A stretch of DNA of 36,871 nucleotides from Gemmatimonadales bacterium (GTDB lineage Bacteria; Gemmatimonadota; Gemmatimonadetes; Gemmatimonadales; GWC2-71-9), in the NCBI GenBank assembly GCA_036265815.1, contig DATAOI010000059.1:1-36871 (forward strand), written 5' to 3'. A model generated the notes under the pieces. That model ran no database searches. It saw only the letters and a program-made list of their open reading frames with translations, and was not told the DNA's origin. Of this stretch, positions 3,934 to 32,288 are shown piece by piece; position 1 is the stretch's first letter; every line of letters starts with the position of its first letter. Position numbers and translations under genes: made by a program.

Positions 3934-3940
3934 GGTCGTC

Positions 3941-5558: not shown

Positions 5559-5564
5559 TATCTT
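5559..5564 (+). promoter_or_regulatory. Candidate -10 element for leaderless mutY
   Basis: TATCTT lies exactly 8 nt before the mutY ATG and there is no Shine-Dalgarno in between, so transcription would begin at or next to the start codon. No convincing -35 is visible. The same geometry occurs at nadE and crcB. Confidence 0.4.
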
Positions 5565-5572
5565 CACCACCA

Positions 5573-6274: not shown

Positions 6275-6278
6275 TGCC

Positions 6279-7159: not shown

Positions 7160-7175
7160 CTCGCTCCTTTCGCTC

Positions 7176-7583
7176 CTATCCCGAGACGATCTCCACGCCG
7201 GGGATCTGCTCGGGATGGCTGATGAATCCGACAACGCGCCGGGCGGCGTCCACCACCGTGATGGTCGGCCGCAGATGGGAATCGCTGGCATCCAGGTCCA
7301 TGCGGATCCGGCACCCGGTGAGCTCCTGGTCCGGGCCGACCACCGGCGACCCGGTGCGCATCAGCTCGTCTGCCCGGGTGTGCCACGGATGCTTGCCCTC
7401 GGCGAGACACCGGGTGACCAGGTCGCGATCGCTCAGGGTGCCGAGGAACAGGCGCGTGCGATGATCATCCACCACCGGGACGACCGAGATGTTGCGGGTC
7501 TTGAGCATGATCGCCACCTCGCTCGCCATGGCGCCGGCCACCGCCACGTGAGGATCGGCCACCATCACCTCTGAAGCTTTCAT
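7176..7583 (-). CDS. CBS-domain protein
   Basis: This 135-residue stand-alone tandem-CBS (Bateman) protein has a first CBS motif at about residues 1-60, with MKASEVMVADPHV, ISVVPVVDD and GTLSDRDLVTR. The second, more divergent CBS is at about 68-130 (ADELMRTGSPVV, GFISHPEQ). Such modules bind adenosyl ligands and usually regulate a partner. None is fused here, so the partner is unknown. It lies between the patatin gene (31 nt upstream) and DUF2203. Confidence 0.9.
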   Translation of the reverse strand: MKASEVMVADPHVAVAGAMASEVAIMLKTRNISVVPVVDDHRTRLFLGTLSDRDLVTRCLAEGKHPWHTRADELMRTGSPVVGPDQELTGCRIRMDLDASDSHLRPTITVVDAARRVVGFISHPEQIPGVEIVSG

Positions 7584-8451: not shown

Positions 8452-8912
8452 GTCTCCCGCTTGCTCATCCGGTGGGTCTCGGCCCGGGCGTAGCGCGCCC
8501 GTTCCTCCGCGGTCTCGGGCACCAGGCGGGGCACCCGCTTGGGGAGGCCATGCTCGTCGATCGCGACGAATACGACGTGCGCCGTGTGGGTGTGGCGCCG
8601 CTCTCCCGTGCTCACCCGCTCGGCGTACACGTCGACCGAGATGTCCATGGAGGAGTTCCCCACGTAATCCACCGTGGCCTCCACGGTGACCAGCGCGCCC
8701 ACCGGAATCCGCTCGCGGAAGTCCACCCGGTCGATCGCCGCCGTCACCGCCGGCCCGCCCGCATGCCGGATCGCGGCCACCGCGGCCGCCTGGTCGACCA
8801 GCGCCATGAGCTCGCCGCCGAACAGATCGCCCCGAACGTTCTGCATGTGGGGCATGACGAACGTGGTGATGGTGCCGACCGAATGGGACATCGGGCGGGA
8901 GTCGGGGAGCAT
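8448..8912 (-). CDS. Hotdog-fold acyl-CoA thioesterase
   Basis: The 154-residue hotdog thioesterase resembles the YciA/BFIT family. The central helix NVRGDLFGGELMALVDQAAA contains the usual catalytic Asp, followed by RVDFRERIPVGALVTVEATV and SSMDISVDVYAE. It hydrolyses acyl-CoA to free acid and CoA. I prefer the ATG at 8912, which has GAGAG upstream and lies 8 nt after the nadE stop. An internal ATG at 8891 is an alternative. It overlaps the patatin gene by 4 nt. Confidence 0.88.
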   Translation of the reverse strand: MLPDSRPMSHSVGTITTFVMPHMQNVRGDLFGGELMALVDQAAAVAAIRHAGGPAVTAAIDRVDFRERIPVGALVTVEATVDYVGNSSMDISVDVYAERVSTGERRHTHTAHVVFVAIDEHGLPKRVPRLVPETAEERARYARAETHRMSKRET

Positions 8913-8920
8913 GGATGCTC

Positions 8921-10729
8921 TCAGTAATCGACCGGGCGGAGATAGTACTCCCCGATCGCCGTCGCGCTCAGCATTGCGACGGTGGGGAGCCGGCGCTTCC
9001 AATGGGTGGAGTCGAGGCGCTTGCGGACGATCGCGATCTCGGCCTCGGTGAAGCCCAGCGCCGCGACCTCGGGATCGCGATAGCCCAGGAGGATCCAGTG
9101 GAGAATGGCGTCCGCCTTGGGATAGCTGATCCCGAAGTCGCCCTCGTCGGTCTGGCCGGTGATGAGGTCGGCGCTGGCGGGTTTGGAGACGATCACCTCA
9201 GGGACCCCGAGGTGTCGGGCCAGCGTCCACACCTGGCTCTTGAACAGATCGCCCAGCGGATTGACCGGCGGCGAGTCGTCGGCGTGCCAGGTGAAATACC
9301 CCAGGAGACGTTCGGTCTTGTTGCCGGTCCCGAGGGGCAGGGCGCGGTGGGCCGCGGAGAGATCGAACAGCGTGATCATGCGGGTCCGCGCCATGATGTT
9401 CCCCAGGCGGCCGGGGTCGGGGGCGCCGCCGATCGCCGCGGCGAGCCCGTCCACGGCGCCGCTGATGTCGACCGTCACCCCGCCGATGCCCAACCGTTCG
9501 ATGACGAGCTGCGCATGGCTCAGGCTCTCCACGCTCGACGTGCGGTACGGCATCCGCACGCCCAGCACGTTCTCCGGTCCCACCGCCTCCGCCGCGAGGT
9601 ACGCCACCAGCGAGCTGTCGACGCCGCCGGAAAGACCGAGCACGACCTTGTGGAATCCCCGCCGCCGCTGGACCTCGTCCCGCACGAACTCGACCAGCCA
9701 CCGGCGGGTGAGCTCCGGCTCGATCGCGAGCGGATCCGACCCGGGGATCGAAGGAGGAGCGGCCGGCGCCGACCTCGCCCGGCTGTGACGCGGACGCGAA
9801 TCCTTGGCCGGTGGAACCGGGACAGCCGCGGAAGACGATGCGGGCGCGCCCTGGCGGGCGTGGTGCAGCGAGCCCAACAGGTGCGGCAGCCGCATCTCCA
9901 GATCCGCCAGCAGCGGCATGTCGGCCCGGGCGCGGGTGATCTCCTCGAAGTCGAGTACGGCCGGGAGCAGCGCTTCCTCGAAGACGGGTCCCTCGCTGAC
10001 CAGCTCTCCCCGTGGGTTCGCTAGGACTGATCCGCCAGGGAAGGCCTTCCCTCCCTCGAATCCGACCAGTTGAGCCACCGCGACGTAGACTCCGTGCTCT
10101 CCCGCGATGTCCTGCGCCATGCGGTTCCACCGCGCGAGGCTACTCGGCCGGCCCCCCGCCGCGTCCGTGGCGACGATCCCCCGTGCCGGGCTCGCGCTCG
10201 GGATGATGATCAGCTGCGCCCCGCCCAGCGCGGCCAGCATCGGGGTGAACGAGTGCCAGGCGTCTTCGCAGATCAGAATGGCGGCCCGGCCCCAGCCGGT
10301 GTCGAAGGCCTGCACGCTGCGACCGGCCTCGACGAATCGCTCCTCGTCGAACACGCCGTAGGTCGGGAGGAAGACTTTCCGGTGGACGTGCCGGATGCCC
10401 GCATCGGGTCCACCCAGTGTGGCGTACAGACCGGAGTTGAAGAGCCGGTTCTGATGCAGCTCATAGAAGCCGAGGGCGACATCGAGCGGGGGCGCCTTGG
10501 AGTCCCGGTGCTGCAGGCTCAGGTCCTGGAACAGCTGATCGGCGGAGAGGGCGAGATCACGGACCCCGCCCTCGACGAAATATCCGGTGAGCGCGGTCTC
10601 CGGCGCCACGACGAGATCGGGCGGCTCGGCCCAGCCGCCGACTTCGCGGAACAGCGCACCGAGACGGCAGAGGTTCTCTTCGTAGGCGCCCTTCCGGGGC
10701 CTGAGCTGGGCGATCGCGAGGCGGAGCAC
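8921..10729 (-). CDS. nadE: Glutamine-dependent NAD+ synthetase
   Basis: The 602-residue two-domain enzyme carries out the last step of NAD+ synthesis. The N-terminal nitrilase-type glutaminase (about 1-270) has a Glu in APETALTG, a Lys in HRKVFLP and the nucleophile Cys in LICEDAWH. The C-terminal ATP-PPi synthetase (about 330-602) has the PP-loop SGGVDSSLVAYL and later TGNKTE. I chose the GTG at 10729, which gives VLRLAIAQLRP, the usual N-terminus of this family. The frame could extend to another GTG at 10762. A TATACA 8 nt before 10729 supports the shorter form. It is the first gene of a six-gene operon. Confidence 0.95.
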   Translation of the reverse strand: MLRLAIAQLRPRKGAYEENLCRLGALFREVGGWAEPPDLVVAPETALTGYFVEGGVRDLALSADQLFQDLSLQHRDSKAPPLDVALGFYELHQNRLFNSGLYATLGGPDAGIRHVHRKVFLPTYGVFDEERFVEAGRSVQAFDTGWGRAAILICEDAWHSFTPMLAALGGAQLIIIPSASPARGIVATDAAGGRPSSLARWNRMAQDIAGEHGVYVAVAQLVGFEGGKAFPGGSVLANPRGELVSEGPVFEEALLPAVLDFEEITRARADMPLLADLEMRLPHLLGSLHHARQGAPASSSAAVPVPPAKDSRPRHSRARSAPAAPPSIPGSDPLAIEPELTRRWLVEFVRDEVQRRRGFHKVVLGLSGGVDSSLVAYLAAEAVGPENVLGVRMPYRTSSVESLSHAQLVIERLGIGGVTVDISGAVDGLAAAIGGAPDPGRLGNIMARTRMITLFDLSAAHRALPLGTGNKTERLLGYFTWHADDSPPVNPLGDLFKSQVWTLARHLGVPEVIVSKPASADLITGQTDEGDFGISYPKADAILHWILLGYRDPEVAALGFTEAEIAIVRKRLDSTHWKRRLPTVAMLSATAIGEYYLRPVDY

Positions 10730-18828: not shown

Positions 18829-20187
18829 TCAGGCCAGCCAGGCCCGGAAGGTGCCGATCAGCAGCCAGGCATTGAGACCGATGATCGCCGCCGCCACGGC
18901 CCACGCGCCGGCGGCGAGCACCGGGTGGTTGACGAACTGGCCCATCTTGGACCGCTGGCCGGTGAAGTAGACCAGCGGGACCACCGCGAACGAGAGCTGC
19001 AGGCTCAAGATGACCTGGCTCAGAATGAGCAGCGCGCCCGCTCCCTTCTCGCCGTAGAGAATGGTGACGATGATGGCGGGAATGATCGCGATCAGCCGGG
19101 TGATCAGCCGCCGAAGCCAGGCCGGCAGCCGGATATTGAGAAATCCCTCCATCACGATCTGCCCCGCCAGTGTGCCGGTGATCGTCGAGTTCTGCCCCGA
19201 GGCGAGCAGTGCCACGGCGAAGAGCGTGCTGGCGATGGTGGTGCCCAGGAGCGGCGCCAGCAGCCGGTAGGCATCCCCGATCTCCGCCACCTCCTGGTGC
19301 CCGCTCTGGTGGAAGGTGGCGGCGGCCAGCATCAGGATGGCGGCGTTGATGAAGAAGGCGAACAGGAGCGCCACCGTGGAATCGAGGGTGGCGAACCGGA
19401 TCGCCTCCCGCTTGGACGAGTCGTCGGGCAGCACCTTCCGGGTCTGCACGATGGAAGAATGCAGGTAGAGATTGTGCGGCATGACGGTGGCGCCCAGAAT
19501 GCCGATGGCGATATAGAGCATCGCCGGATTGCTCACGATGCCGGTCGTGGGCACCAAGCCGCGCACCACCGCGCCGAGCTCCGGCCGGGCCATCAGCAGC
19601 TCGATCCCGAAGCAGAGGCCGATGGTGGCCACCAGCACGATCACCAGCGCCTCGAGGTAGCGGAACCCGCGATGCTGCAACAGCAGGATCAGCAGGACGT
19701 CCAGTGCCGTCAGGCACACGCCCCACACCAGCGGAATCCCCAGCAACAGATTGAGGGCGATGGCCGACCCGATGACCTCGGCGAGATCGCAGGCGGCGAT
19801 GGCGATCTCGCAGAGCACCCAGAGGATGAAGCTCACCGGCCGGGAATAGTGGTCGCGGCAGGCCTGGGCCAGGTCCCGCCCGGTGACGATGCCGAGCTTG
19901 AGGGCGAGCGCCTGCAGCAGAATCGCCATCAGATTGGAGATCAGGATGACGCTCAGCAGGGTGTACCCGAAGCGGGCGCCGCCGGCGAGATCGGTGGCCC
20001 AGTTGCCCGGGTCCATGTAGCCCACCGCCACCATGTAGCCGGGACCGGCAAAGGCCAGTGCCTTCCGCCAGAAGGAGACCCCACGGGGCACCTGGACCGT
20101 GTGGTACGACTCCGGCAGGCTCGGCAGCGTGCGGGGGAAGCGCCAGCCGGAGATCTGCTCCATCGGAGGGGTCGACGCGGCGCTCAT
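18829..20187 (-). CDS. mntH: Nramp-family manganese transporter
   Basis: The 452-residue, roughly 11-helix transporter imports Mn2+ (and possibly Fe2+) by proton symport. The Nramp signature DPGN is at residues 59-62 in [11 protein letters not shown], and the second metal site is the MPHN in [14 protein letters not shown]. The N-terminal cytosolic tail is about 45 residues. The start overlaps the regulator stop (ATGA), so it is co-transcribed and translationally coupled with its likely repressor. The 65-bp gap to the downstream operon contains a short palindrome (GGCCTGATCAGGCC at its stop), possibly a weak terminator. Confidence 0.95.
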
Positions 20188-20870
20188 CGGTCGACCTCGC
20201 GGACGCAGAGGAGCACCTGGGCCAGCTCCTGCCCGATCACGTGAGACTCGCCGCCCGCGTCGAGCGTCACCGGACCGCCGAACGGCTGGCGGTCGAGCAG
20301 GGTCACGACGACACCGGGCCGAAGGCCCAGCGAGGCGAGATAGCGGAGCCGCTCAGGCTCGCTCTCGTCCACCCGGCGGATCTCGACGATCTGGCCGACC
20401 TCGAGCTCTGAAAGTGGAGTGCAGAGGGGCTCGTGAATCGAACCGTCCGCCTCGGGAATGGGGTCGCCGTGAGGATCGGTCGTGGGATGGCCCAGCGCAG
20501 CCGCCATCCGCTCCACCAGCTGATCGCTGACCGCGTGCTCCAGCCGCTCCGCCTCCTGGTGAACCGTGTCCCAGGGGTAGTCGAGGAACTGGACCAGGTA
20601 TGCCTCGATCAGTCGATGGCGCCGCACCATCCGCAGGGCGGCCCGGCGGCCTTCCGGGGTGAGCTGCACTCCCTTGTAGGGCGCGTGCTCCAGCAGTCCC
20701 AGCTCGGACAGCCGCTTGACCATGCCGCTGACCGAGGGGGCGGAGAGCTCGAGCAGATGGGCGATCTCGCTGGTCGAGGCCGGGCGGCCTTCGGGCGAGA
20801 GCCGGTAGATGGCCTTGAGGTAGTCCTCGACGGAGCGAGTCAGCGATTCGGCGGCGGCGGCAGGAGACAT
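20184..20870 (-). CDS. mntR: DtxR/MntR-type metal-dependent repressor
   Basis: The 228-residue regulator has an N-terminal winged helix (about 10-75) with [22 protein letters not shown]. The DtxR dimerisation/metal-binding domain (about 76-145) has [33 protein letters not shown]-terminal SH3/FeoA-like domain follows (about 155-228: [26 protein letters not shown]). With metal bound it would repress its own operon. The neighbouring mntH argues for Mn rather than Fe sensing. The operator at 20882-20897 lies in its promoter. Confidence 0.93.
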
Positions 20871-20881
20871 GACCGATATGG

Positions 20882-20897
20882 TTTAGGTTGCCCTAAA
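20882..20897. promoter_or_regulatory. Palindromic MntR/DtxR operator
   Basis: TTTAGG-TTGC-CCTAAA is a perfect 6-bp inverted repeat with a 4-bp centre, 11 bp upstream of the mntR ATG. It resembles the TTAGG-containing boxes of the DtxR/MntR family. On the minus strand, TTGACG at 20924-20919 could be the -35, which would place the box over the -10/start region. Confidence 0.75.
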
Positions 20898-20947
20898 CTT
20901 GTAGTATGATCGGCCTAACGTCAAGGTTTCGAGCCGCGAATCCGCGG

Positions 20948-21538
20948 TCACCCGCCGAGATGCCGCAGCAACCCGCTGAGCACCCGCTCGGTCAGTCCCC
21001 AGACGATGGCGTCGTCGAGCTGATAGGCGTCGACTTCCCGGCTCTCGCCCCGGATCTCCAGCCGAACCGGATGGCGGGTTCCCGGATGGAGCAGCCGATC
21101 CAGCTCGACCCAGCGGGCGCCGGCCACCTCGGGGTTGAGCGTGAGTGGAAGCTGAGCGTGGAGCAGGAAGACGCAGGGGCGGATCGCGATCGGCGGCAGG
21201 ACCGGAGTGCGGGGGACCACGTCATCGAGGACGCCGAGCAGCTGGCCGCGTGAGAGCGGGAGGCCGACCTCCTCGCTGGTCTCCCGGATGGCGGTGGCGA
21301 CGAGGTCATCGTCGCCCGGCTCCCGGCGGCCGCCGGGAAGCGCCATGTGACCGGACCACGGGTCACCCACTCGCTCAGCGCGACGGATGAGGAGAACGGC
21401 GTCGGGGGCGGGCTTCAGCACCACTGCCACCGCTGCCCAGCGCAGGGCTTCGGCGTCGGGATCGGTCCACGGCCGGTGGGAGGCGAGGCGGTCCCGCAAC
21501 CGGTCGAGGCGGGGCGTCAGTGGTTGTGGGTATGACAT
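20948..21538 (-). CDS. NUDIX hydrolase, CoA pyrophosphatase type
   Basis: The 196-residue NUDIX protein has a box of the NUDT7/CoA-pyrophosphatase form, GGRREPGDDDL...ATAIRETSEEVGL, where the spacing between Gly and Arg is one residue longer than in the classical NUDIX box. VLLIRRAERVGDPWSGHMALPGG just before it is also typical. It would cleave CoA to phosphopantetheine and 3',5'-ADP. It overlaps the FmdB gene by 22 nt. The mntR promoter lies behind its 3' end. Confidence 0.88.
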   Translation of the reverse strand: MSYPQPLTPRLDRLRDRLASHRPWTDPDAEALRWAAVAVVLKPAPDAVLLIRRAERVGDPWSGHMALPGGRREPGDDDLVATAIRETSEEVGLPLSRGQLLGVLDDVVPRTPVLPPIAIRPCVFLLHAQLPLTLNPEVAGARWVELDRLLHPGTRHPVRLEIRGESREVDAYQLDDAIVWGLTERVLSGLLRHLGG

Positions 21539-21741
21539 CCGCCGCCGCAGCACCCGCCTCCCGGCGGGGGACCGAGGCGACTGTAGTCGGCGCGTGGCGT
21601 TCCGCTGGCGGGACGGGCCGTCAGGGACATCAGGCGCTCCAGCGTGCGGCCCTGGCACTCGGGACACGCCACCTCAGTGTCCGAGCGCACCAGTTGCTCG
21701 AATTCGGTTCCGCAGGCGCAGCGGTAGGTATAGATGGGCAT
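21517..21741 (-). CDS. FmdB-type zinc-ribbon protein with Cys/His tail
   Basis: The 74-residue protein has an N-terminal FmdB/CxxC_CxxC zinc ribbon: YTYRCACGTEFEQLVRS with C8 and C10, then CPEC (C26, C29). The C-terminus is PPPGGGCCGGGCHTHNH, with three Cys and three His in the last eleven residues, which may bind a second metal. FmdB proteins are putative regulators. The 3' end overlaps the NUDIX start by 22 nt. Confidence 0.9.
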   Translation of the reverse strand: MPIYTYRCACGTEFEQLVRSDTEVACPECQGRTLERLMSLTARPASGTPRADYSRLGPPPGGGCCGGGCHTHNH

Positions 21742-21772
21742 AAAGGGAGATTCGCCGGTCCCGCGCGAAGGG

Positions 21773-22657
21773 TCAAGGTGTGGCGACGCCGGCGAGGCCG
21801 GTGAGCCGTTCGCTCGCGTCCCACAGCCGTCGCGCCAGTGCCTCGTCGTATGACGCGGGCGAGCTGCGGCCGACACGGCGTCCGTCGAAATACGTTCCGG
21901 TGACCCGCTCCACCTCGGGCGACGCGGCGAGATGGACGATGGCGGTCGCCGCTTTCTCCGGGCTGGCGCCGAAGGTCCGGGCCAGGGCTCCGCCGACAAC
22001 GGGGACGTTCATGTAGTCGGACAGGAGCTTGGTGCCGATCACACCGGGATGGACGCAGTTGACGGTGACACCGGTGCCTTCCAGCCGGCGTGCCAGTTCG
22101 TAGGTGAACAGGATGTTGGCCAGCTTGGTACGGCCGTACACCCGGACCGGATCGTAGCGCCGCTCGCTCTGCAGATCGTTGAGGTCGAGCGTGCCACCCT
22201 GATGCGCCCCCGAGGACAGGTTGACGATTCGGGATGGAGCGCCGGCCTCCAGGCGGTCCAGCAGGAGCCGGGTGATCAGGAAGTAGGCGAGGTGGTTCAC
22301 CGCGAACTGGTGCTCGAGTCCATCGACCGTGACCTCGCGCTGGCGGACGATGACACCCGCGTTGTTGATCAGCACGTGGATCTGCGCATGCCGCTCGCGG
22401 ATGACGGCGGCGGCCGCTCGGACCGACGACTGGATCGAGAGATCGGCGGTTACCACCTCCGGCAGGGGCGCCCGCGTGTCACCGGCAATCGCTTCGGCAA
22501 CCGCCTCGCCGTCCTCGGCCCGGCGGCAGATCAGCACCAGAGTGGCGCCCAGCACCCCGAGCTGTTCGGCCACGGCCCGGCCGATGCCCCGGCTGGCGCC
22601 GGTGACGACGCAGACGCGCCCGGTGAGGTCCGCCAGCGGGGCCGTGGTGCTTCGCAT
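21773..22657 (-). CDS. Short-chain dehydrogenase/reductase (retinol dehydrogenase-like)
   Basis: The 294-residue Rossmann SDR has the cofactor motif TGASRGIG (19-26), NNAG in the middle, a catalytic Ser in VNLSSGAHQGG, and YGRTK as the YxxxK pair. HPGVIGTKL follows, as in the retinol dehydrogenase-like subfamily. An Arg after the motif (CRRAEDG) suggests NADP(H). The substrate is unknown. It follows the alpha/beta hydrolase by 2 nt. Confidence 0.92.
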   Translation of the reverse strand: MRSTTAPLADLTGRVCVVTGASRGIGRAVAEQLGVLGATLVLICRRAEDGEAVAEAIAGDTRAPLPEVVTADLSIQSSVRAAAAVIRERHAQIHVLINNAGVIVRQREVTVDGLEHQFAVNHLAYFLITRLLLDRLEAGAPSRIVNLSSGAHQGGTLDLNDLQSERRYDPVRVYGRTKLANILFTYELARRLEGTGVTVNCVHPGVIGTKLLSDYMNVPVVGGALARTFGASPEKAATAIVHLAASPEVERVTGTYFDGRRVGRSSPASYDEALARRLWDASERLTGLAGVATP

Positions 22658-22659
22658 CG

Positions 22660-23496
22660 TCAGCCCAGCTCCGCGGAGAAGGCGGCCACGCTCGCCTCGA
22701 CGGCGCGCTCGAGCTCGGGGGTGCTGCCCTTCCAGGGGTGGGCCGCGCCGAAGGTATGGCCGGCGTGCTCGATTCGGAGGAGGCGGCTGCTGCCCCCGGG
22801 CGCCGCGGCGGCCAGCCGTTCGCCCTCCTCGAGCGGGACCGATTCGTCGCTGGCCCCGTGCACGATCAGCCAGGGCACGCCGACACGCGAGGCGGCCATG
22901 GAGATGTCCAGCGCGGCGTGGTTGCACTCGATATCGTCGAGCACGTCCGGGTAGAGCGGGAGCACCTGGCCGGTTCGCGCATTCCGCACCTCCTTGACTC
23001 CCGCGTCGCGCCACTCGGCGCGCTCGGAGGCCGGCCAGCGATCGACGGTTGAGATGGCGGACCAGGTGACCAGGGCCTCGATCCGGGGATCCCGTGCGGT
23101 GTGCAGCACGGCAACCCCGCCGCCGCGAGAGTGGCCCAGCAGGCCCAGACACGAAGGCGGCGCCACACCCAGCTCTCCCCGCATCACGGCCTCCACCACC
23201 CGGCCCAGATCGGTGAGCTCGGCGGTAAAGGTGTTGTGCGCGAACTGCTCCGGAAGAGAGAACTCACCGACGTCATCCACTCCGCTGCCGCTCAGGTTGA
23301 AGGTGACGGCCGTGAATCCGGCGCGGGCGAGCCGCTCGGCCAGGGGAGGAAACATGCCCCAATCCTTGAATCCCTTGAAGCCGTGGACCACCACCACCGC
23401 GGGACGGGGCGATTCGCGTCCACCGCCGCGCACATCCACTAGAATGTCGCCCAGTGCGCCGTCCAGCCGGTGCTTGGTGAGGGTCGCGGTGGCCAT
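22660..23496 (-). CDS. Alpha/beta hydrolase (dienelactone hydrolase-like)
   Basis: The 278-residue alpha/beta hydrolase has VVVVHGFKGFKDWG (oxyanion region), the nucleophile S123 in GHSRGG, the acid Asp in HGASDESVP and the catalytic His in EHAGHTFG. The family resembles bacterial peptidase S9-like or dienelactone-hydrolase-like esterases. It is co-transcribed with the SDR, 2 nt away, and begins 17 nt after the LD-carboxypeptidase. Confidence 0.88.
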   Translation of the reverse strand: MATATLTKHRLDGALGDILVDVRGGGRESPRPAVVVVHGFKGFKDWGMFPPLAERLARAGFTAVTFNLSGSGVDDVGEFSLPEQFAHNTFTAELTDLGRVVEAVMRGELGVAPPSCLGLLGHSRGGGVAVLHTARDPRIEALVTWSAISTVDRWPASERAEWRDAGVKEVRNARTGQVLPLYPDVLDDIECNHAALDISMAASRVGVPWLIVHGASDESVPLEEGERLAAAAPGGSSRLLRIEHAGHTFGAAHPWKGSTPELERAVEASVAAFSAELG

Positions 23497-23513
23497 GCTA
23501 CAAGCTACACGGT

Positions 23514-24476
23514 TCAGGCCACCGCGGGCTCCAGCAGCGACACCTCCCCGGTATCTGCGTCGAGCCGGGCCTGGATGCCGAGTGGGAGGGTCCACTGGTC
23601 GTCGATGTGCCCCACGGGGAAGCCGAGCGCCACCGGAATACGCAGGGGGCCGAAGTAGGTCGCGAGCACCTCGTCGAAGCCGAGGGCGCCGTCGCCGGTG
23701 CCGCGCTGGAGCTCGCTGAACCGGCCCACCAGGACACCGGCCAGCCGGTCCAGCGCGCCGGCCATCCGCAGGTGGGAGAGCATCCGATCCACTCGGTAGA
23801 GGTCCTCGCCCACGTCCTCCAGCACCAGCAGCGCGCCATCGAGGTCGGGAAAGAATCCGGTGCCGATCAGGCACTGCAGCAGGCTCAGGTTGCCGCCGGC
23901 GAGTCTCCCCTCCGCCACCCCTCCCTGGAGCGTGACGATCCGATTCTCCCGAGCCACCAGCACGCCGGCCGGCTGGGGCAGCGGCTCCAGCGGACCGGCC
24001 GGCGCCGCGCAGGAGAGGACTCGCTCGAAATGGCGGCGGCTGAATCCGGGCATGCTGGTTCGTGCGTTGGGCCCGTGGAAGCCGACCACTCCGGCGCATC
24101 GGGTCACTCCGGCCAGCAGCGCGGTCACATCGGAGAAGCCGATGACAGCCTTGGGACGGCGCACCAGGGCCGGAAAGTCGACCCCACCCAGGATGCGGGT
24201 CAGGCCGTAGCCCCCGCGAATACACCACACCGCGTCGACGGCCGGATCCCGAAGTGCGGCATTGAGGTCGGCCAGCCGCTGCTCGTCGGTCCCGCCAAGG
24301 TAGCCGTAACGGGCGCCGGCATGGGGGGCCAGCAGCGGTTCGTAATCCAGCGCACGGCACAGCGCCTCCGCACGTGTTAAATCATCGCGGTCCAGCAACG
24401 GTCCCGCCGGCGCGACCAGCGCCACCCGACTTCCACGCGCCAGTCGGGGAGGACGAACGAGCGGTTTTGACCCCAT
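23514..24476 (-). CDS. LD-carboxypeptidase (peptidase S66)
   Basis: This 320-residue serine peptidase releases the terminal D-Ala from L,D-tetrapeptides in murein recycling. The nucleophile is S115 in GFSDVTAL, the acid is a Glu of LEDVGED (about 220), and the His is H290 in FPVGHIDDQ. CIRGGYGLTRIL and GGNLSLLQ are typical of S66. It is the first gene of a three-gene minus-strand unit with the hydrolase and the SDR, divergent from the 24523 gene. Confidence 0.92.
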   Translation of the reverse strand: MGSKPLVRPPRLARGSRVALVAPAGPLLDRDDLTRAEALCRALDYEPLLAPHAGARYGYLGGTDEQRLADLNAALRDPAVDAVWCIRGGYGLTRILGGVDFPALVRRPKAVIGFSDVTALLAGVTRCAGVVGFHGPNARTSMPGFSRRHFERVLSCAAPAGPLEPLPQPAGVLVARENRIVTLQGGVAEGRLAGGNLSLLQCLIGTGFFPDLDGALLVLEDVGEDLYRVDRMLSHLRMAGALDRLAGVLVGRFSELQRGTGDGALGFDEVLATYFGPLRIPVALGFPVGHIDDQWTLPLGIQARLDADTGEVSLLEPAVA

Positions 24477-24522
24477 GATGGCTCCGCGGTAGATTGTGCG
24501 ACACCTCAACGGGAGAACGGTA

Positions 24523-25086
24523 GTGCGTGCTTCGCAGCCCGCGTTGCTCGCCGCCGGTCGTGTGATCGCTGAATTGCGGGATTCGATGGTTCTCCAGTGG
24601 GCCGACTGGCTGGGAGACCGGATCACCGCCACACCCACGATACCGCGCCTGACGGTCGAGCGGGAGTTTCGGCTCCTGCTCGACGTCATCACCGAGATGG
24701 TTGGCCCGCTCCGGCGGGAAGTCAACAGCGTGTGGTTCCACGTCTGCGAGCACTACGGGCGGATGGCGTCGACCCGGGGGCTCGCGGCGGGTGAGGTGGT
24801 CGAGGAACTGCAATTTCTCCGCGAGCTCCTCATCCGTAACCTCGCACCTGTTCTGGTGGCGATGCGTGCCAGGCAGAGCATGGCCATCATGCTGCGCCTC
24901 AACCGAGTCATCGACAAGGGGGTCTCGGTGGCCGTGGTCGGGTACACCGACGCGCTCGTGGCCACGTTATTCGCCCAGAACGGCGTGCCCATGTTCGACA
25001 CCCAACAGGACACCGGCGAGATCGAGCGCCAGCTCAGCGCCCTGGAGCAGGAGCTGCGTGCCGTGGTCAAACAACCTCGGCAATAG
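24523..25086 (+). CDS. RsbRD N-terminal-like helical protein
   Basis: The 187-residue all-helical protein is similar in layout to the RsbRD N-terminal domain seen in stressosome and sensor-kinase proteins: WADWLGDRI, then FRLLLDVITEMVGPLRREV, HYGRMASTRGLAAGEVVEELQFLRELL. The C-terminus (EIERQLSALEQELRAVV) looks like a short coiled coil. Here it stands alone without an effector domain. I chose the GTG at 24523 because GGGAG lies 7 nt before it. An in-frame GTG at 24496 would add nine residues. It is followed 18 nt later by the glycosyltransferase gene. The function is not established. Confidence 0.7.
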   Translation: MRASQPALLAAGRVIAELRDSMVLQWADWLGDRITATPTIPRLTVEREFRLLLDVITEMVGPLRREVNSVWFHVCEHYGRMASTRGLAAGEVVEELQFLRELLIRNLAPVLVAMRARQSMAIMLRLNRVIDKGVSVAVVGYTDALVATLFAQNGVPMFDTQQDTGEIERQLSALEQELRAVVKQPRQ

Positions 25087-25104
25087 ACGTCTCCGCTGTT
25101 CCTC

Positions 25105-26238
25105 ATGGCGCCCGCCGACTTGCTGCCGGCCCTGCCCTGGCTGGCGCCGTTTGCAGCCCTTCCCCGGCTGGCCGACACCCATCCCAATCTTTCCGACGTC
25201 CACCCGATCTCGGGCGAGCTGGTGTCCGTCATCGTGCCCGCGCGAAACGAGGCAGCCACCATCGAGACGGTGGTGCGGTCGGTACTCGACTCCGCCTACC
25301 GGCCGCTCGAGCTCCTGGTCGTGGACGATCGCTCGACCGACGCCACCGCGGCAATCCTCCAGCGGCTTGCCGCGGAGGACCGGCGGGTCCGGGTGGTAGA
25401 CGGCGAGGCGCTGCCGGACGGCTGGTACGGAAAGCCCTGGGCCTGCCACCAGGGATACAGCCTCGCTCGCGGCGACCTTCTGCTTTTCACCGATGCCGAT
25501 ACCCGACACCATCCCGAGCTGCTGGGGCGGGCGGTCGCGGCGCTCCGGCGGGAGCGGGCGGGGCTGCTGACCGTGGCTCCGCACCAGCGCTGCGTCACTT
25601 TCTGGGAGCGGCTGGTCATGCCGCAGATCTGGCTGCTGCTCGGCCTCCGCTATCACCCGCAGCGAGTGAACCGGGCCCGGCGCGCGCGAGACGTGATCGC
25701 CAATGGGCAGTTCATCCTGGTCTCCCGGGAGCCCTACGAAGCGGCAGGAACCCACGAGGCGGTGCGGCACGAGGTGGCGGAGGATCTCGCGCTGGCGCAG
25801 CGGTTCCTCGCATCGGGGCGGACTATTCGCTTCGCATTCGCGCAGCGGTTCATGGAGACGCGGATGTACCGAAGCCTGGGCGAGCTGATCGAGGGCTGGT
25901 CCAAGAACATCTACCTGGGCGGCCGCCGCTCGTTTCCGGAGAACCCGGCGCTCCGCGCGGCCGCCCCGCTCATGGTGGCGGCGGCGCTCGGGTTCTGGCT
26001 GGTTCCTCCGGTGGCGCTCGCGCTGGGTGGAGGCCTTCGTTCCGCGGCGGGCGTGGCCGTCGGTCTCTCGGCGGTCTTCTGGATCCTCATCTCGATCGGC
26101 ATGCGGATTCCGTTCTACTACGGGCTGGCGTATCCGCTGGGCGCACTCATGGCCTTGTACATCGCGGCGCGCTCGACCTGGCGGGGTGCCCGGAAAGTCG
26201 AGTGGCGGGGACGACTCTACGGCGCCGCAGAGCGATAG
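25105..26238 (+). CDS. Family 2 glycosyltransferase, membrane-associated (HpnB/CrtQ-like)
   Basis: The 377-residue GT-A protein has SVIVPARNEAATIETVVRSV, the nucleotide-sugar motif DDRSTD, DGWYGKPWACHQG as in HpnB/CrtQ-type enzymes, the DxD-like FTDADTRH, and EDLALAQRF later. Three C-terminal membrane helices (about 285-360) anchor it. Relatives act on carotenoids or hopanoids, but the acceptor cannot be read from the sequence. It lies 18 nt after the RsbRD-like gene and converges on the next gene (15 nt). Confidence 0.88.
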   Translation: MAPADLLPALPWLAPFAALPRLADTHPNLSDVHPISGELVSVIVPARNEAATIETVVRSVLDSAYRPLELLVVDDRSTDATAAILQRLAAEDRRVRVVDGEALPDGWYGKPWACHQGYSLARGDLLLFTDADTRHHPELLGRAVAALRRERAGLLTVAPHQRCVTFWERLVMPQIWLLLGLRYHPQRVNRARRARDVIANGQFILVSREPYEAAGTHEAVRHEVAEDLALAQRFLASGRTIRFAFAQRFMETRMYRSLGELIEGWSKNIYLGGRRSFPENPALRAAAPLMVAAALGFWLVPPVALALGGGLRSAAGVAVGLSAVFWILISIGMRIPFYYGLAYPLGALMALYIAARSTWRGARKVEWRGRLYGAAER

Positions 26239-26253
26239 GGGGCCGGGTCCGGC

Positions 26254-26919
26254 TCAGCTCCCGCCGGTGCGGTCCACCACGAGGTTCTGGTTCGGAATTC
26301 GCCCGCCGAGCACCCGGCCGTCGGGCGCAACCCTGAGGTGGAACTCCACGGTTCCGATCGCTACGCGCAGCGAGTCGTTGCCCATGCCGGCGACCTTCCC
26401 ATCGACCGTCTGCCCCCCACCGAGGTTGAAGAACGGCACCTGACCGGCCGGCGTGCCGCCCGCCCGGGAGCGCCGCACCGCCTGCTCCAGGAGCGCGAAC
26501 GACAGGTTGAGGTAAGGGATCGCGCCCCGATGGGTGGCGATGACCCGGGTCTGCAGTCCCCCGCCATTGATGTCGTCCACGGACGCGCTGTCCTCCTTGA
26601 AGATGATGCGGGCCTGCTGGACGAGGTGGCCCTTGGTGTGTCCGCTGTCCACGTCCTCCCGCACCGTCACCTCGATCAGCGGCACCGTCGCGTCAGGAGC
26701 AATGACCGCGCGATACGCCTGGGCAGTGTTGCGGGCGCCGTGAATGGCCAGCGTGCCCTGGAGCATGGTGGGGCTGCGGGAGAATCGCTCCGTGGCCACG
26801 GTGTCTCCGGCGCGGCGGATGACGAACGTGCCGCTGTCGGCGGCGGACTGGGCGCTGAGGGCGGCCGGGAGGAGGAGCGTGGCGGCCAGCCCGAGGAGGC
26901 ATCGATCAGGTAGAGGCAT
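26254..26919 (-). CDS. Secreted protein of unknown function
   Basis: The 221-residue protein has a signal peptide (LGLAATLLLPAALSAQ, probable cleavage after SAQ), the style common in Gemmatimonadota. The mature part has TFVIRRAGDTVATERFSR and GRVLGGRIPNQNLVVDR, which gives repeated beta-strands, probably a beta-barrel or sandwich. I recognise no family. It is single, between two convergent or divergent neighbours. Confidence 0.8.
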   Translation of the reverse strand: MPLPDRCLLGLAATLLLPAALSAQSAADSGTFVIRRAGDTVATERFSRSPTMLQGTLAIHGARNTAQAYRAVIAPDATVPLIEVTVREDVDSGHTKGHLVQQARIIFKEDSASVDDINGGGLQTRVIATHRGAIPYLNLSFALLEQAVRRSRAGGTPAGQVPFFNLGGGQTVDGKVAGMGNDSLRVAIGTVEFHLRVAPDGRVLGGRIPNQNLVVDRTGGS

Positions 26920-27049: not shown

Positions 27050-30000
27050 GTGGAGCTCGGGCCGTTGCTGGGCGGACTGGATTCGTTGCAGGCGCTGCCG
27101 AACCTCATTGCCGCGTTGGGACACCAGCGGCTCTTCGACCAGGTCCCCGACCTGTTGGGACCCCGCAGGGTTCGGGACTCGGCGGCGCCGCTCGTTGTCG
27201 GTCGCGCGGGGGAGTTCCCCTGGTTCGCGGTGGCAGGCCCGGATGTCGAGCGGTCCGCGCGCGGGCTGGCTCGACGACTGGCATTGCGGGGGCGAGTCGC
27301 CGGCGTCCTGGCGCTCGACCCGGTAGGCCGGCGACTGGCGCTGGCGGTGGCGCTCGAGCGCAGTCCTTTGCTCACGATCGATCTGGACCACCCCGCCCCG
27401 GCCGCGCTGGCGTGTCTGGGTCGAATGTCGGGAAGCGGGTCCGGTGGTGCTCTTGCCTACGCCCTCCGGGTGGCTGATGCGCTCTCCGGTGAGTCGGCCG
27501 GGCGGCGGTTCTTTCAAACCTTCAGAAATACCCTGGAGCGAATGGCGGCCGGGCTGCCCGGGCCGCTCCGTGGCGAGGATCGCCGTAATCTCGCGCTGCT
27601 TCAGCTCACCCGGGTGCTCTTCCTCTACTTCGTCCAAGCCAAAGGCTGGCTCGCGGGGCGGGACCGCTTCCTGGCGGAAGAGGTGGACCGGTGCCTGAGC
27701 CGGAAGCGAAGCATCCAGCGCGATCTGCTGCAGCCGCTCTTCTTCGGAACGCTCAACCGACCGGCGCCGAAGCGGGGCTCCCGGGCGGCCGGTTTCGGTC
27801 CAATCCCGTTCCTCAACGGCGGCTTGTTCGAGCCGCATCCACTGGAGCGGTCCGTCCGCGCCAGCATTCCCACGCCGCTCTGGCGGGAAGCGTTCGACCA
27901 GCTCTTCGAGCGTTTTCACTTCACGGTGTCCGAAACGCCCGGAGAGGGAATCGCGCCCGATATGCTGGGCCGGGTGTTCGAGGGAGTGATGGCGCCGGAC
28001 CTGCGCCGCGCATCGGGCACGTTCTACACCCCCGCGGCTCTGGTGCGAAGCATGCTGGACGCCGCCATCCCGGCCGCCGTCGCCGGCCGGCTCAGGTGCG
28101 GTGAGGTCGAGGCAGGGCACCGTCTCGACAACGGTGAGCCGGCGGCGCTCGCTACCTTGGGCTCGCTCACGGTGCTCGATCCGGCAGCCGGCTCCGGCGC
28201 TTTTCTCCTGGGCGCATTGGAGCGTCTGTCGGAGCGGGGAGCCGGCAGCCCCGAGTCGCTCGCCCGACGCAGGCGGCGGATTCTGGAGCGGAACCTTTTC
28301 GGCGTCGATCTGAGCGCCGCGGCCGTGCGGCTGACCGAGCTTCGGCTCTGGCTCGCTGTCATCGCCGGCGAGGGCTCCGGCCGGCCCGAGCTGGTCCGTC
28401 CCCTGCCCAATCTCGATTGCCTGATCCGCCAGGGGGATAGCCTCCTCGAGCCGGTCGGCAGTGCTATCCGCCTGCGAGCTCCAGCGCGGGAGGCCTCCGG
28501 GACCATCGCCTCGCTCCGGCAGCGTGTGGTCGGGGCCACGGGGGGAGAAAAACACACCCTGCTGCGGGAGCTCCGGGAGGCCGAGGCGGCAGGGTTTTCC
28601 GAATCGCTGGCCTTGGCCGAGCGGGAGTTGGCGGAGGCGGTCAGCGAATGCCTGAACGAGGCGCGTGGGTCCGATCTGTTCGGCCGCCGCCGCGGGCTGG
28701 ACCACGCGCTCGGGGCACGGTTGCAACTCTGCCGCGCGGAATTGCGCGCGGTTCGCGCCGCCCGGCGCGCGGTCCTCCGAGAACGCGAGGTCCCCTGGTT
28801 CCATTATCAAAGCCACTTCGCGGACGTGTTCGCGGCGGACGGGTTCGATCTCGTCGCGGGCAATCCACCCTGGCTCCGCTCCGAGGACATCCCCTCGCAC
28901 CTGCGCCGGCGGCTGGCGGGCCGGTATCGCTGGTGGCGAAAAGGCGGGGGGTATGGTAACCGACCCGACCTCGCGGTCGCGTTCCTGGAGCGCTCGGTCG
29001 AGCTGGTCAGGCCGGGAGGGGTGGTCGCCCTGCTGGTGCCCGCCAAACTGGCCACCGCGGCTTACGGAACGGCGGCGCGCCACGCGCTTGCCACGACGAC
29101 CACGCTGAGCGTGGTGGCAGACCTCACGGGTCAGCCCGAGGCCGCGTTCGACGCCACGGTCTACCCGCTCGCCCTCATCGTGCGAAAGGAGCCGCCGCCC
29201 ACGGCTCATCGTGTCCAGACCCGGCTGGGCCAGAGGCCCGGCGGCGGTGTAGTGCAGTCGCGGCTCCGATCCGGAGGACCCTGGATTCTCCGGTCCGATG
29301 GAGCGCGCGCGGTACTCGGACGATTGGCACGAAGGCATCCTCTGCTGGGGGAGCAGCTCGCCTGCCATCTCGGTCTCAAGACCGGCGCCAACGCCATCTT
29401 CCTGAATCCGCCGCCCGACATCGAGCCCGAGCTCATGCGCTGGGCCGTTCGCGGCCGGGACGTGAGGCCGTTCCGGGTGGCAACCCGGGTGCGACTGCTC
29501 TGGACTCATGGGCAGGACGGACGACCGTTGCGGGAGTTGCCACCCAGGGCGGCGGAATATCTAGAGCCGCGGCTCTCCGCCCTTCGTGTCCGGGCGGACT
29601 ATCAGGGCGAGCGCGCCTGGATCCTGTTCCGCACCCGGGCCGCCACATCTGCTCACCGAGTGGTCTGGGCCGATCTCGGCCGGTCCCTCGCGGCCGCCGC
29701 GCTCACCGGGGCGCGCGATGCCGACCGGGTTCCACTCAACAGCTGCTACGTAGCCGCCGCCTCGACCGCAGCGGAGGCCGAGCGGGTCAGTGCCTGGCTC
29801 AACTCCAGCTGGATCCGGGCGGCGGCTCGGCTCGGTGCGGTGCCCGCCGCCGGCGGTTTCCATCGGTTCAGCGCCGCCACCGTCAGCCGACTTCCCCTTC
29901 CGCCGTCCGTGCTCTCCGACCCCGATCTGTCCCGGCTCGCTGGAGCCGGACGTCGAGGGGAGCCGGTGCAGGAGCAACTCGATGACCTCGCTGCGCGGCA

Positions 30001-30073
30001 CCTCGAGCTTTCGGCGGGCGAGCGGACCGCGCTCGGGCGGCTGGTGGCCCCAGGCACCGACCATCGTGGCTGA
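27050..30073 (+). CDS. Large N6-adenine DNA methyltransferase (Eco57I/DrmMI-like)
   Basis: The 1007-residue protein starts at GTG 27050. The frame is closed by a stop at 26966 and has no earlier start. Residues ~1-130 form an unrecognised alpha/beta domain (FPWFAVAGPDVERSARGLARR, VAGVLALDPVGRRLALAVA). Residues ~160-330 are helical (LLQLTRVLFLYFVQAKGWL) with NGGLFEPHPLE, as in Type IIG/BREX-like methylases. The methylase core has SGTFYTP, the SAM-binding motif I DPAAGSG (377-383) and the catalytic NPPW (605-608). The last ~350 residues look like a target-recognition domain. There is no PD-(D/E)xK or HNH signature. It would methylate adenine in a self/non-self system with the overlapping helicase. 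Confidence 0.85.
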   Translation: MELGPLLGGLDSLQALPNLIAALGHQRLFDQVPDLLGPRRVRDSAAPLVVGRAGEFPWFAVAGPDVERSARGLARRLALRGRVAGVLALDPVGRRLALAVALERSPLLTIDLDHPAPAALACLGRMSGSGSGGALAYALRVADALSGESAGRRFFQTFRNTLERMAAGLPGPLRGEDRRNLALLQLTRVLFLYFVQAKGWLAGRDRFLAEEVDRCLSRKRSIQRDLLQPLFFGTLNRPAPKRGSRAAGFGPIPFLNGGLFEPHPLERSVRASIPTPLWREAFDQLFERFHFTVSETPGEGIAPDMLGRVFEGVMAPDLRRASGTFYTPAALVRSMLDAAIPAAVAGRLRCGEVEAGHRLDNGEPAALATLGSLTVLDPAAGSGAFLLGALERLSERGAGSPESLARRRRRILERNLFGVDLSAAAVRLTELRLWLAVIAGEGSGRPELVRPLPNLDCLIRQGDSLLEPVGSAIRLRAPAREASGTIASLRQRVVGATGGEKHTLLRELREAEAAGFSESLALAERELAEAVSECLNEARGSDLFGRRRGLDHALGARLQLCRAELRAVRAARRAVLREREVPWFHYQSHFADVFAADGFDLVAGNPPWLRSEDIPSHLRRRLAGRYRWWRKGGGYGNRPDLAVAFLERSVELVRPGGVVALLVPAKLATAAYGTAARHALATTTTLSVVADLTGQPEAAFDATVYPLALIVRKEPPPTAHRVQTRLGQRPGGGVVQSRLRSGGPWILRSDGARAVLGRLARRHPLLGEQLACHLGLKTGANAIFLNPPPDIEPELMRWAVRGRDVRPFRVATRVRLLWTHGQDGRPLRELPPRAAEYLEPRLSALRVRADYQGERAWILFRTRAATSAHRVVWADLGRSLAAAALTGARDADRVPLNSCYVAAASTAAEAERVSAWLNSSWIRAAARLGAVPAAGGFHRFSAATVSRLPLPPSVLSDPDLSRLAGAGRRGEPVQEQLDDLAARHLELSAGERTALGRLVAPGTDHRG

Positions 30074-32288
30074 GACACTTGCGGCGGTGCCGCTGCCGAT
30101 CCTCACGGCGCTCTGCTCGGGAGCTCCAGCCTCCGCGAGCGCGGTGGCGCGAGCACTGGTCGCGAGCCTGCAGCCGGAGGAGGCACCGGATGCCCCGCCG
30201 GCGTGGCTGCGCGAGGAGCAGCGACGCAGCTTCCGTCGGCTGCTCGCGGCCGTCCGCCGACACCGAGGCGCGCTGCTGGCCGACCCGGTCGGGAGCGGCA
30301 AGACGTTTGTCGCGTTGGCCGTGGCGGCGGCACTCAACCCGAGGGGTCCGACGGCCTGTCTGGTCCCGGCGACGCTGGTGCCACAGTGGCGGTCGGTCGC
30401 GAATGGTCTGGGTGTCCGGGTGTTGGTGAGGTCGCACCAGCAAGCGAGCCGGGGCCGGCTTCCCCTCGGCACGCGCGGGCTGGTGATCGTGGACGAGAGT
30501 CATCACTTCCGAAACCCCCAGACGTGTCGCTACGGGCATGTAGCGCCCTGGCTGATCGGCCGGCCCATTCTGCTGGTCACCGCCACTCCGGTGGTGAATC
30601 GGCTGGAAGACCTGGCGCATCAGCTCCTCCTCGGCGTGCGTGACGACGCTCTGCTTGCCGATGGGGTGATCTCGTTGGGAGCCGCGCTCGGTGGGGGACA
30701 GGGCGCCGCTGCGCTCGGACGCCTGGTGGTCGAGGAACGCTCGGCGGGTGGGCGGCCTGCACGCCTCGTCCGGGTGAGCCCGGCCTGCCAGCGGGAGTGT
30801 GGGGCCGCGGCGCAGGCCATCGGGTGGATCGATCGGCTGTCGCTCTCCTGCCATACACCGACGGCTGCCCTGGTACGGGGAACGCTCGCCCGGGCCGCGG
30901 CCTCCAGCCCGGCGGCGCTGCTTGGCGCGCTTCGGCGCTACCGCAGGCTGTTGCTCCACGCACGCGATGCGGTGCGGACCGGGCGGACGCTCAGCCGCGC
31001 GGAGCTCAGGAAATTCGCGGGCGACCTGCAGGACCAGCTGGTGCTCTGGGAGCTGCTGCCGGAGAGCGGTGCCGGCATCGATCTCGACCTGGCAGACCTG
31101 GAGCGGACCAACGTCGTGATCGAGGCGGCTGTCGCGGCAAGCCGAGGGCCAGATGCCAAGCTCGAGCGCCTCCAATCCATTCTGGCGGACGGCCATCCCA
31201 CCATCGTGTTCGTGTCCCGCCGGGAAACGGTGCGCCATCTGCGGGAGCGGCTGGCAGGCCCGCCGATCGCGTGGTGCACGGGGGAGCGGGCGGGGCTGGG
31301 CCGCTCGACGGTGCCTCGATTGGTAGTGCTGGGTTGGTTCAGGACCGGTGGCTCACCGCAGATAGGGCCCGAACCGACCTGCCTGGTAGTGACGGACGTG
31401 GCCGCGGAGGGTCTCGACCTTCAGCGGGCCGCGCGAGTGGTCCACTACGACTTGCCATGGACGCCGATGCGGCTGGAGCAGCGGGAGGGTCGCGCGGTAC
31501 GGCTGGGGTCGGTGCACGGCGAGGTCGAGGTCGTGCGCTTCACCCTGCCCGAGCCGCTGGAGCGCGGGCTCCGAGTCGGAGAAGCACTGACTCGAAAAGC
31601 CACGCTCCCCATCAGGGCGGGGCTCGGACCGGAAGGCCGGCGCCTCTGGCGCTGGCAGTCGGAGATCGCCGACGAGCTGCACCCGGGCCCGATGAGGTTC
31701 GGCGTGGCGCTGGTGCCCGAAGGCCCGTCGGGAGTTCTCGCGGGCTTCGGTCTCTACGGGACGGTGGAAGGGCACACTGCGCGGCTCGCCGCGAGTGTGG
31801 TGTGGATCGACGGGAGCGGTGGCTCGACCGAAGCTCGAGAGGTGGTGGGCCCCAGACTGGCGGCCGCCGCCAGAAGCGAGTCGACCCGAGCCATAACAGC
31901 CGAGCAACTGGAGCTGGCGATGTCCTGGCTGGCGGCCCCGCTGCGGCAACGGCTGGGACTTCTGGGTGGCCACCGGTGGGCGGCGGGCGCATCCAGTCCG
32001 GCGGTTCGCGAGTTGGCCGAACGACTGCACGGCGAGGTACAGGCGGCGGCGCGGAGCCGGAACGCGGTCCTCCTCGCTCAGTTGGAGCGCGCGCTCGGTT
32101 TCATTACCGGCGGTCACACCGCCGGTGAGGCGCTGCTGATCCAACGGCTGATCGGGCTGTCGGCATCGGATCTGTGCAGGAGGATCCCAGGGCTTCCTGC
32201 GGGCACTGCGCGCTGGGGGGCAGTCGAGGCCCGGCTGACGGGTCTGGTGGTGTTCGAGGAGCCCGGCCGCAGCGAGGGAGTACCGTAG
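30066..32288 (+). CDS. SNF2-type helicase, DrmD-like partner of the methylase
   Basis: The 740-residue SF2 helicase starts at GTG 30066, 8 nt before the methylase stop. The N-terminal RecA domain has Walker A DPVGSGKT (73-80), DESH (143-146) and TATPVVN. The C-terminal RecA domain has TDVAAEGLDLQ (motif V, 443 on) and QREGRAVRLG (motif VI, 472 on). Thus ATP hydrolysis and translocation residues are intact. The C-terminal ~240 residues (500-740) show no known domain and no nuclease signature. The pair recalls DrmMI-DrmD of class 1 DISARM, or a split Type ISP enzyme, but is smaller. It ends 5 nt before the left copy of the direct repeat. Confidence 0.85.
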   Translation: MAETLAAVPLPILTALCSGAPASASAVARALVASLQPEEAPDAPPAWLREEQRRSFRRLLAAVRRHRGALLADPVGSGKTFVALAVAAALNPRGPTACLVPATLVPQWRSVANGLGVRVLVRSHQQASRGRLPLGTRGLVIVDESHHFRNPQTCRYGHVAPWLIGRPILLVTATPVVNRLEDLAHQLLLGVRDDALLADGVISLGAALGGGQGAAALGRLVVEERSAGGRPARLVRVSPACQRECGAAAQAIGWIDRLSLSCHTPTAALVRGTLARAAASSPAALLGALRRYRRLLLHARDAVRTGRTLSRAELRKFAGDLQDQLVLWELLPESGAGIDLDLADLERTNVVIEAAVAASRGPDAKLERLQSILADGHPTIVFVSRRETVRHLRERLAGPPIAWCTGERAGLGRSTVPRLVVLGWFRTGGSPQIGPEPTCLVVTDVAAEGLDLQRAARVVHYDLPWTPMRLEQREGRAVRLGSVHGEVEVVRFTLPEPLERGLRVGEALTRKATLPIRAGLGPEGRRLWRWQSEIADELHPGPMRFGVALVPEGPSGVLAGFGLYGTVEGHTARLAASVVWIDGSGGSTEAREVVGPRLAAAARSESTRAITAEQLELAMSWLAAPLRQRLGLLGGHRWAAGASSPAVRELAERLHGEVQAAARSRNAVLLAQLERALGFITGGHTAGEALLIQRLIGLSASDLCRRIPGLPAGTARWGAVEARLTGLVVFEEPGRSEGVP

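Follow-up and report, generated by a model that had tools for sequence, protein, structure and literature searches.

Dam, CcrM and CamA are well-known core m6A methyltransferases, and all are single genes of narrower groups. In a window of 36,871 nucleotides, the whole stretch of Gemmatimonadales DNA that was analysed, a gene for an adenine methyltransferase (MTase) overlaps a gene for an SNF2-family helicase (Table 1), and this pair appears to share with solitary core (epigenetic) m6A methyltransferases the trait of vertical core inheritance without a cognate nuclease. The closest fold to the MTase is that of CamA of Clostridioides difficile, an orphan m6A MTase (Z 28.2), and neither protein has a nuclease. 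CamA, however, is the product of a single gene and has about 577 aa, whereas the MTase described here is longer, overlaps an SNF2 gene and occurs order-wide.

Homologous MTase and SNF2 helicase genes also adjoin in systems made of a PLD-SNF2 helicase and a Type IIG-like MTase (PADLOC C3a139 'HKD+Snf2'; loci L141, L149 and L161). In those systems the helicase mostly lies upstream of the MTase and carries an N-terminal PLD nuclease domain, neither of which holds for the pair; their recognition domains are swapped and their distribution is patchy over many phyla, whereas the pair has a near-fixed target-recognition domain (TRD) and is found across the order. Class 1 DISARM combines an adenine MTase with an SNF2-like helicase, both from broad families to which the pair also belongs, but it also has DrmA, DrmB and DrmC, which the pair lacks, and the pair has a core-gene distribution. 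The DUF1998/MZB domain of DrmB had no match anywhere in the genome (98.99% complete), no family of DrmA helicases or DrmC PLD nucleases was common to the 49 loci compared, the helicase scored 73.5 bits with the DrmD model NF038317 (cut-off 610), and DrmMI matched the MTase partially, with 86 bits and a best stretch at aa 402-669. PglX/BrxX of BREX resembles the MTase in fold over aa 149-1002 (Z 25.6), but the curated PglX models of BREX types 1, 2, 5 and 6 gave the MTase 27-45 bits against cut-offs of 400-900, and neither PglZ nor BrxC was found among the identified neighbours in the window.

Type ISP (LlaGI, LlaBIII) and Type IIL (MmeI) enzymes are alike in the fold of their MTase and recognition domains (Z 22-24); they hold a nuclease in a single chain, whereas the pair has none and carries its motor on a separate chain, in two ORFs. 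The catalytic residues that a fused N-terminal nuclease of the Type IIG/IIL kind would show are not conserved in aa 1-146 of the MTase. Hma, like the pair, brings helicase and MTase genes together; its HmaB has been described as an m5C MTase, and a third, ATPase gene belongs to the system (PMC8565338). The pair differs in having no constant third gene and in the adenine MTase motifs DPAAGSG and NPPW. No earlier account of the MTase-helicase pair was found in the open-licence literature; its parts are of known kinds, and what is new is their arrangement, which is nuclease-free, order-wide and apparently vertical, with a recognition domain that seems stable.

The gene pair and its surroundings

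Both ORFs were found with the coordinates, strand, lengths and 8-nt overlap that the sequence-only reading had given, and the five motifs it named are all in place and invariant or nearly so among 49 MTases and 46 helicases (Table 1). Pfam names the first ORF Eco57I/N6_Mtase and the second SNF2-related/Helicase_C (Helicase_C E 6.7e-15), and the best named matches in PADLOC, all partial, were REase_MTase_IIG (1e-28), DrmMI (3e-25) and DrmD (1e-18). Chance can be ruled out for the gene pair, given the Pfam E-values and the occurrence of orthologues across some 40 genera within the window's family. The overlap GTGGCTGA probably couples translation of the two genes. A W-P-x-I-V-A-E-like stretch (30030-30075) lies in the helicase frame just 5' of the GTG and is kept in many loci, so that the helicase may start upstream of this codon, with a longer overlap with the MTase.

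Table 1 Positions in the window of the gene pair, its domains and motifs, and the genes upstream
Feature	Position	Strand	Details
Upstream neighbourhood, context only	18829..26919		Nramp 18829-20187 (-), DtxR/FeoA 20184-20870 (-), alpha/beta hydrolase
Upstream neighbourhood, rest	23514..26919	mixed	LD-carboxypeptidase 23514-24725 (-), GT2 glycosyltransferase 25105-26238 (+), 221-aa ORF 26254-26919 (-)
Adenine-specific DNA methyltransferase (MTase), Type IIG-like / Eco57I family	27050..30073	+	1007 aa, GTG start; Pfam Eco57I E 5.5e-19
MTase N-terminal accessory domain, aa 1-146	27050..27487	+	no conserved D/E/K
MTase SAM-binding motif I DPAAGSG, aa 377-383	28178..28198	+	D377, P378, A379, G381, G383 in 49/49 orthologues; S382 in 48/49
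MTase catalytic motif IV NPPW, aa 605-608	28862..28873	+	invariant, 49 orthologues
MTase target-recognition domain (TRD), about aa 736-940	29255..29869	+	boundaries by analogy with the CamA/BseCI/MmeI fold
SNF2-family DNA translocase/helicase	30066..32288	+	740 aa, GTG start; without N-terminal PLD domain
8-nt overlap GTGGCTGA	30066..30073	+	helicase start codon / MTase stop codon
Helicase Walker A GSGKT, aa 76-80	30291..30305	+	G76, G78, K79 in 46/46; T80 in 43/46
Helicase Walker B / DESH, aa 143-146	30492..30503	+	D143, E144, H146 in 46/46
Helicase motif VI QREGRAVR, aa 472-479	31479..31502	+	Q472, R473, G475, R476, R479 in 45/46
Helicase C-terminal region, aa 521-740	31626..32285	+	evolves fast, with 21-25% identity inside f1 and inside f2

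AF2 models of good quality were obtained, with a pLDDT of 86.9 for the MTase and 88.0 for the helicase. From residue ~147 onward the MTase model aligns best with CamA (rmsd 2.8, 506 aligned), followed by M.BseCI (Z 26.7), BrxX, MmeI (Z 23.7) and the Type ISP enzyme LlaGI (Z 22.8). The helicase core (about aa 36-534) has the SNF2 motor fold, matching INO80, ISW1, Chd1 and ZorD at Z 17-20; INO80 and ISW1 lead the structural ranking (Z 19-20), and RapA leads by Foldseek and by sequence. These whole-model searches aligned no solved fold to MTase residues 1-146 or helicase residues 535-740, and this does not prove that either is novel.

The MTase N-terminus and the helicase C-terminus had been suggested as possible hiding places of the effector activity, a suggestion that the comparison weakens. 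Both rank among the least conserved parts of the proteins, and hhalign relates aa 1-146 of the MTase to the N-terminal domain of the MTases of outgroups (95.2%, E 2.7e-8); no acid or lysine in aa 1-146 is conserved among the 49 orthologues. Pfam gave no match to MmeI_N in the MTase, homology between the helicase C-terminal region and PLD-helicases was not found (hhalign probability 3.8%), and no nuclease was recognised in the pair. A PD-(D/E)XK nuclease in MTase aa 1-130 was considered on account of a suggestive order of secondary structure and was rejected; conservation does not extend to the catalytic residues, and PLD-bearing relatives have the domain too.

The identified flanking genes in the window encode a GT2 glycosyltransferase, an LD-carboxypeptidase, DtxR, Nramp and a PD40-amidohydrolase; no nuclease, DrmA, DrmB, DrmC, PglZ or BrxC was seen among them, in agreement with the earlier statement that DISARM and BREX partners are missing near the pair. 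At least one of Nramp, DtxR, NUDIX, alpha/beta hydrolase, LD-carboxypeptidase, GT2 and rhodanese lies upstream in 30 of the 35 loci of the order with enough flank, where the names of families that were not profile-scanned were read from the sequences. Downstream of the pair, loci of family f2 often have genes for a sigma factor, an anti-sigma factor and DUF4097-like proteins. No third gene is always present beside the pair in the 49 loci. A HAD phosphatase (F2) was tried as a third gene and set aside, being present in 27/49 loci but absent or elsewhere in the others; it looks like an ordinary phosphoglycolate-phosphatase type and a mere neighbour. The pair is conserved across the order, in a housekeeping neighbourhood whose gene order also persists between families. 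Elsewhere in the window (5471-6274), an HhH-GPD base-excision repair gene stands close to MlaE and ABC-transporter genes and is ordinary.

Distribution and descent

The families compared are coded f1 (that of the window), f2 (which includes G131 and G229) and f3 of the same order, and f5 and f10 as other families of the class. In a profile search, the MTase was present in 157 of 172 sampled genomes of the order, a hand count of 159 matches less two weak ones (G305 and G334). The helicase was found in the same way in 244/288 genomes of the order, in 139/159 of the good ones and in 73/79 genera. All 13 genomes of the order without the MTase also lacked the helicase in a hand check of both match lists, and several MTase-less genomes are small (1.8-2.8 Mb). 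Within f1, the MTase occurs in 88/102 genomes and the helicase in most. Across the class, long orthologues were detected in f1, f2, f3, f5 and f10; in f4, f6, f7 and f8, matches were short, weak or none. Since the pair has been lost in several lineages, it is not essential.

For closer comparison, 48 loci and the window were assembled, giving 49 MTases and 46 alignable helicases; in two of the remaining loci (L080, L107) the helicase is cut by a contig end, and L091 (G229) has none. The MTase lies 5' of the helicase on the same strand in 46/46 loci with both alignable, the window included. The dN/dS of both genes among near relatives was 0.10-0.38, indicating purifying selection on both as judged from these sequences, and the helicase diverges faster than the MTase. 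In a maximum-likelihood tree of 76 MTases, f1, f2, f3 and f10 each form one clade (SH-aLRT 99-100) and the window falls inside its genus. Phage records gave no match to the pair, and plasmids no close copy, the best matches staying below 33% identity and covering under half of the protein. The pair would accordingly be described as core genes that are probably inherited vertically in the Gemmatimonadales, with a tree following taxonomy.

The nearest MTases outside the Gemmatimonadota mostly adjoin SNF2 helicases of about 1000-1160 aa. Both helicases of such relatives that were tested have a PLD-like N-terminal domain (PLDc_2; L138, E 2.2e-12; L161, E 1e-9) and match PADLOC 'HKD+Snf2', and in the set of relatives the HKD motif takes forms such as HAKAYIFD and HAKLYIFR, with GSSN after it. 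The f10 helicases have an N-terminal stretch of about 230 aa that aligns to the PLD region of the relatives (hhalign 96%), most strongly in the linker leading into the SNF2 core and weakly in the PLD part; where the relatives have FLHAKAYIFD, f10 reads FPESALIFTG, and H, K and D are gone. The helicases of f1, f2 and f3 lack the PLD region and begin directly with the SNF2 core, with Walker A at aa 76 in the window. The short form of the helicase also occurs in a few Myxococcota and Acidobacteriota MAG loci (L124, L126, L127). The tree and the degenerate f10 intermediate suggest that the PLD nuclease was lost rather than gained.

Two loci outside the phylum depart from the usual gene order. In L138 of Aphanothece hegewaldii (7942-9774), there are three genes, namely the MTase, an AAA/OLD-like ATPase and then the PLD-SNF2 helicase. 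In L144 of Brasilonema (2964-7568), one ORF of 1534 aa matches both the MTase and the helicase profiles and is possibly a fusion of the two.

Recognition domain, candidate motif and possible roles

In restriction-type enzymes, the TRD is commonly exchanged and the catalytic core kept. Direct pairwise alignments, compared at equal catalytic identity, gave ratios of TRD to catalytic identity of 0.87-0.90 in f1, 0.85-0.97 in f2 and 0.83-0.93 in f10, with TRD boundaries taken from fold analogy. In relatives outside the phylum, an outgroup control of more diverse taxa, the ratio was 0.39-0.68 at a catalytic identity of 0.45-0.8, and the outgroup pair L164/L170 has 70% catalytic and 24% TRD identity. 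Profile alignment gave the same outcome. With a TRD conserved almost to the degree of its catalytic core, the Gemmatimonadales enzyme appears to have a DNA specificity that is stable over the whole order.

G229 (f2, locus L091), a genome that fits Gemmatirosa kalamazoonensis, provides a natural deletion of the helicase, and together with a published methylome it already narrows the candidate motif. Its MTase is intact (profile score 1098 bits), the genome is missing from the matches of the order-wide helicase profile search, and a sigma-factor gene directly follows the MTase in place of the helicase of its near relative L096, the locus being otherwise collinear. That the MTase is kept without the helicase suggests that the mark has a value of its own. 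In the families searched, G229 has three candidate MTases, an HsdM, a full-length MmeI-like Type IIL enzyme (PDLC03598, E 3.6e-267) and the MTase of the pair, and no members of PF01555 or PF02086 were found. The MmeI-like Type IIL family has a one-strand 6-mer target. The methylome of Gemmatirosa kalamazoonensis contains the m6A motifs RGATCY, ATGCAC and CCAGN7TCA, each >99% methylated (PMC3974934). We infer that HsdM accounts for the bipartite CCAGN7TCA and the MmeI-like enzyme for ATGCAC; the latter motif was set aside as a target of the pair's MTase, since the MmeI-like enzyme fits a one-strand 6-mer better. With the other two motifs so assigned, RGATCY would be the best guess for the target of the pair's MTase, by elimination among the MTase families searched. 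Over- and under-representation of motifs, and GATC close to the contig ends of complete genomes, did not help to narrow the target.

We hold with moderate confidence that the pair is a DNA-modification module that belongs to the core genes of the Gemmatimonadales and is passed on vertically, and that, as part of this same reading, it descends from a two-gene restriction-type system of PLD-nuclease/SNF2 helicase and Type IIG-like MTase whose nuclease has since been lost. The basis, drawn from sequence comparison, is near-universal presence, synteny, a taxonomy-like tree, intact motifs, purifying selection, the missing PLD domain and a near-fixed TRD. The MTase would bind a fixed site through its TRD and write m6A at one lineage-wide motif; translocating on DNA, the SNF2 motor that the overlapping frame encodes would work with it. 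The ancestral motor presumably served the PLD nuclease; without it, the motor may strip DNA-bound proteins so that sites get methylated, or may patrol for unmodified DNA. The outcome would be a mark with an epigenetic or housekeeping role, not restriction. The SNF2 proteins DDM1 and HELLS help eukaryotic DNA methyltransferases to reach DNA (PMC10538959), a pairing that offers a mechanistic analogy only. Tentatively, and with less assurance than the modification module itself, the SNF2 motor and adenine MTase might together keep one order-wide mark, possibly RGATCY, as a nuclease-stripped restriction-type system and a prokaryotic counterpart of DDM1/HELLS-DNMT.

A less likely but still live alternative is a fixed, non-cutting immunity in which self DNA carries the mark of the MTase at a constant motif, and unmodified DNA that enters the cell is blocked or remodelled by the SNF2 translocase without a nuclease, as proposed for BREX. 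Immunity kept vertically with a fixed self-mark would leave much the same patterns as a modification module, the best named matches are defence proteins (REase_MTase_IIG, DrmMI, DrmD), the MTase fold is near BrxX/PglX, ZorD is among the SNF2 matches of the helicase, and the helicase accompanies the MTase in nearly all cases and disappears along with it. The core-gene distribution, synteny, housekeeping neighbours and lack of mobile copies speak against it, as do the unswapped recognition domains and the MTase of G229 without a helicase. Active ATP-dependent restriction, whose nuclease would be a domain that escaped recognition (MTase aa 1-146 or helicase aa 521-740) or the product of a gene elsewhere, seems improbable. 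The secondary-structure order of MTase aa 1-125 does resemble a PD-(D/E)XK core, the helicase C-terminal region lacks an assigned fold and the relatives have PLD nucleases; yet aa 1-146 shows no conserved acid or lysine in 49 orthologues and belongs to a domain that the PLD-nuclease relatives share, no part is less conserved than the helicase C-terminal region (21-25% identity), no third gene is conserved and the recognition domains are undiversified.

Drift could also have kept a lineage-specific DISARM-like or Type IIG-like remnant without a present role, which the distant DrmMI/DrmD similarity, the scattered losses and the truncated copies in G090 and G382 would fit; with catalytic residues kept order-wide, dN/dS of 0.10-0.38 and near-universal presence, this is very improbable. 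A new mobile defence system is ruled out as first choice by core distribution, synteny and the tree. What stands of the sequence-only reading is a two-gene unit of MTase and SNF2 helicase that belongs to none of DISARM, BREX and Type ISP and in which no nuclease is recognisable; the label of defence system is not supported, in view of its core-gene distribution and its TRD, near-fixed unlike that of nuclease-bearing relatives. A DNA-marking module seems a better description of the pair than a mobile phage defence. If the modification module is the true account, the order-wide MTase and the SNF2 motor whose gene overlaps its own, with an origin that can be followed back to relatives with nucleases, would clearly exemplify how a restriction-type system became a housekeeping mark. 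Gene content alone is a poor ground for calling each MTase/helicase pair defence.

Variant loci

Some loci differ from the common arrangement. L220 (G382) and L221 (G090) contain truncated, contig-internal MTase remnants without a helicase and with related upstream neighbours, which may reflect loss of the pair through local deletion. In three genomes of one genus (G150, G250 and G254; L226, L227 and L228), the MTase is split at about the same place; one ORF holds the N-terminal and catalytic parts and another the TRD, purifying selection acts on both, and the organisation is reminiscent of HsdM/HsdS. G193 has a full MTase on one of its two contigs C171 and C54 and a second MTase C-terminal piece beside the helicase on the other, either a contig break with variation or a duplication. 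In L104, L106 and L137, from f5 and a likely f5 relative, about 0.5 kb separates the MTase from the helicase and the genes do not overlap.
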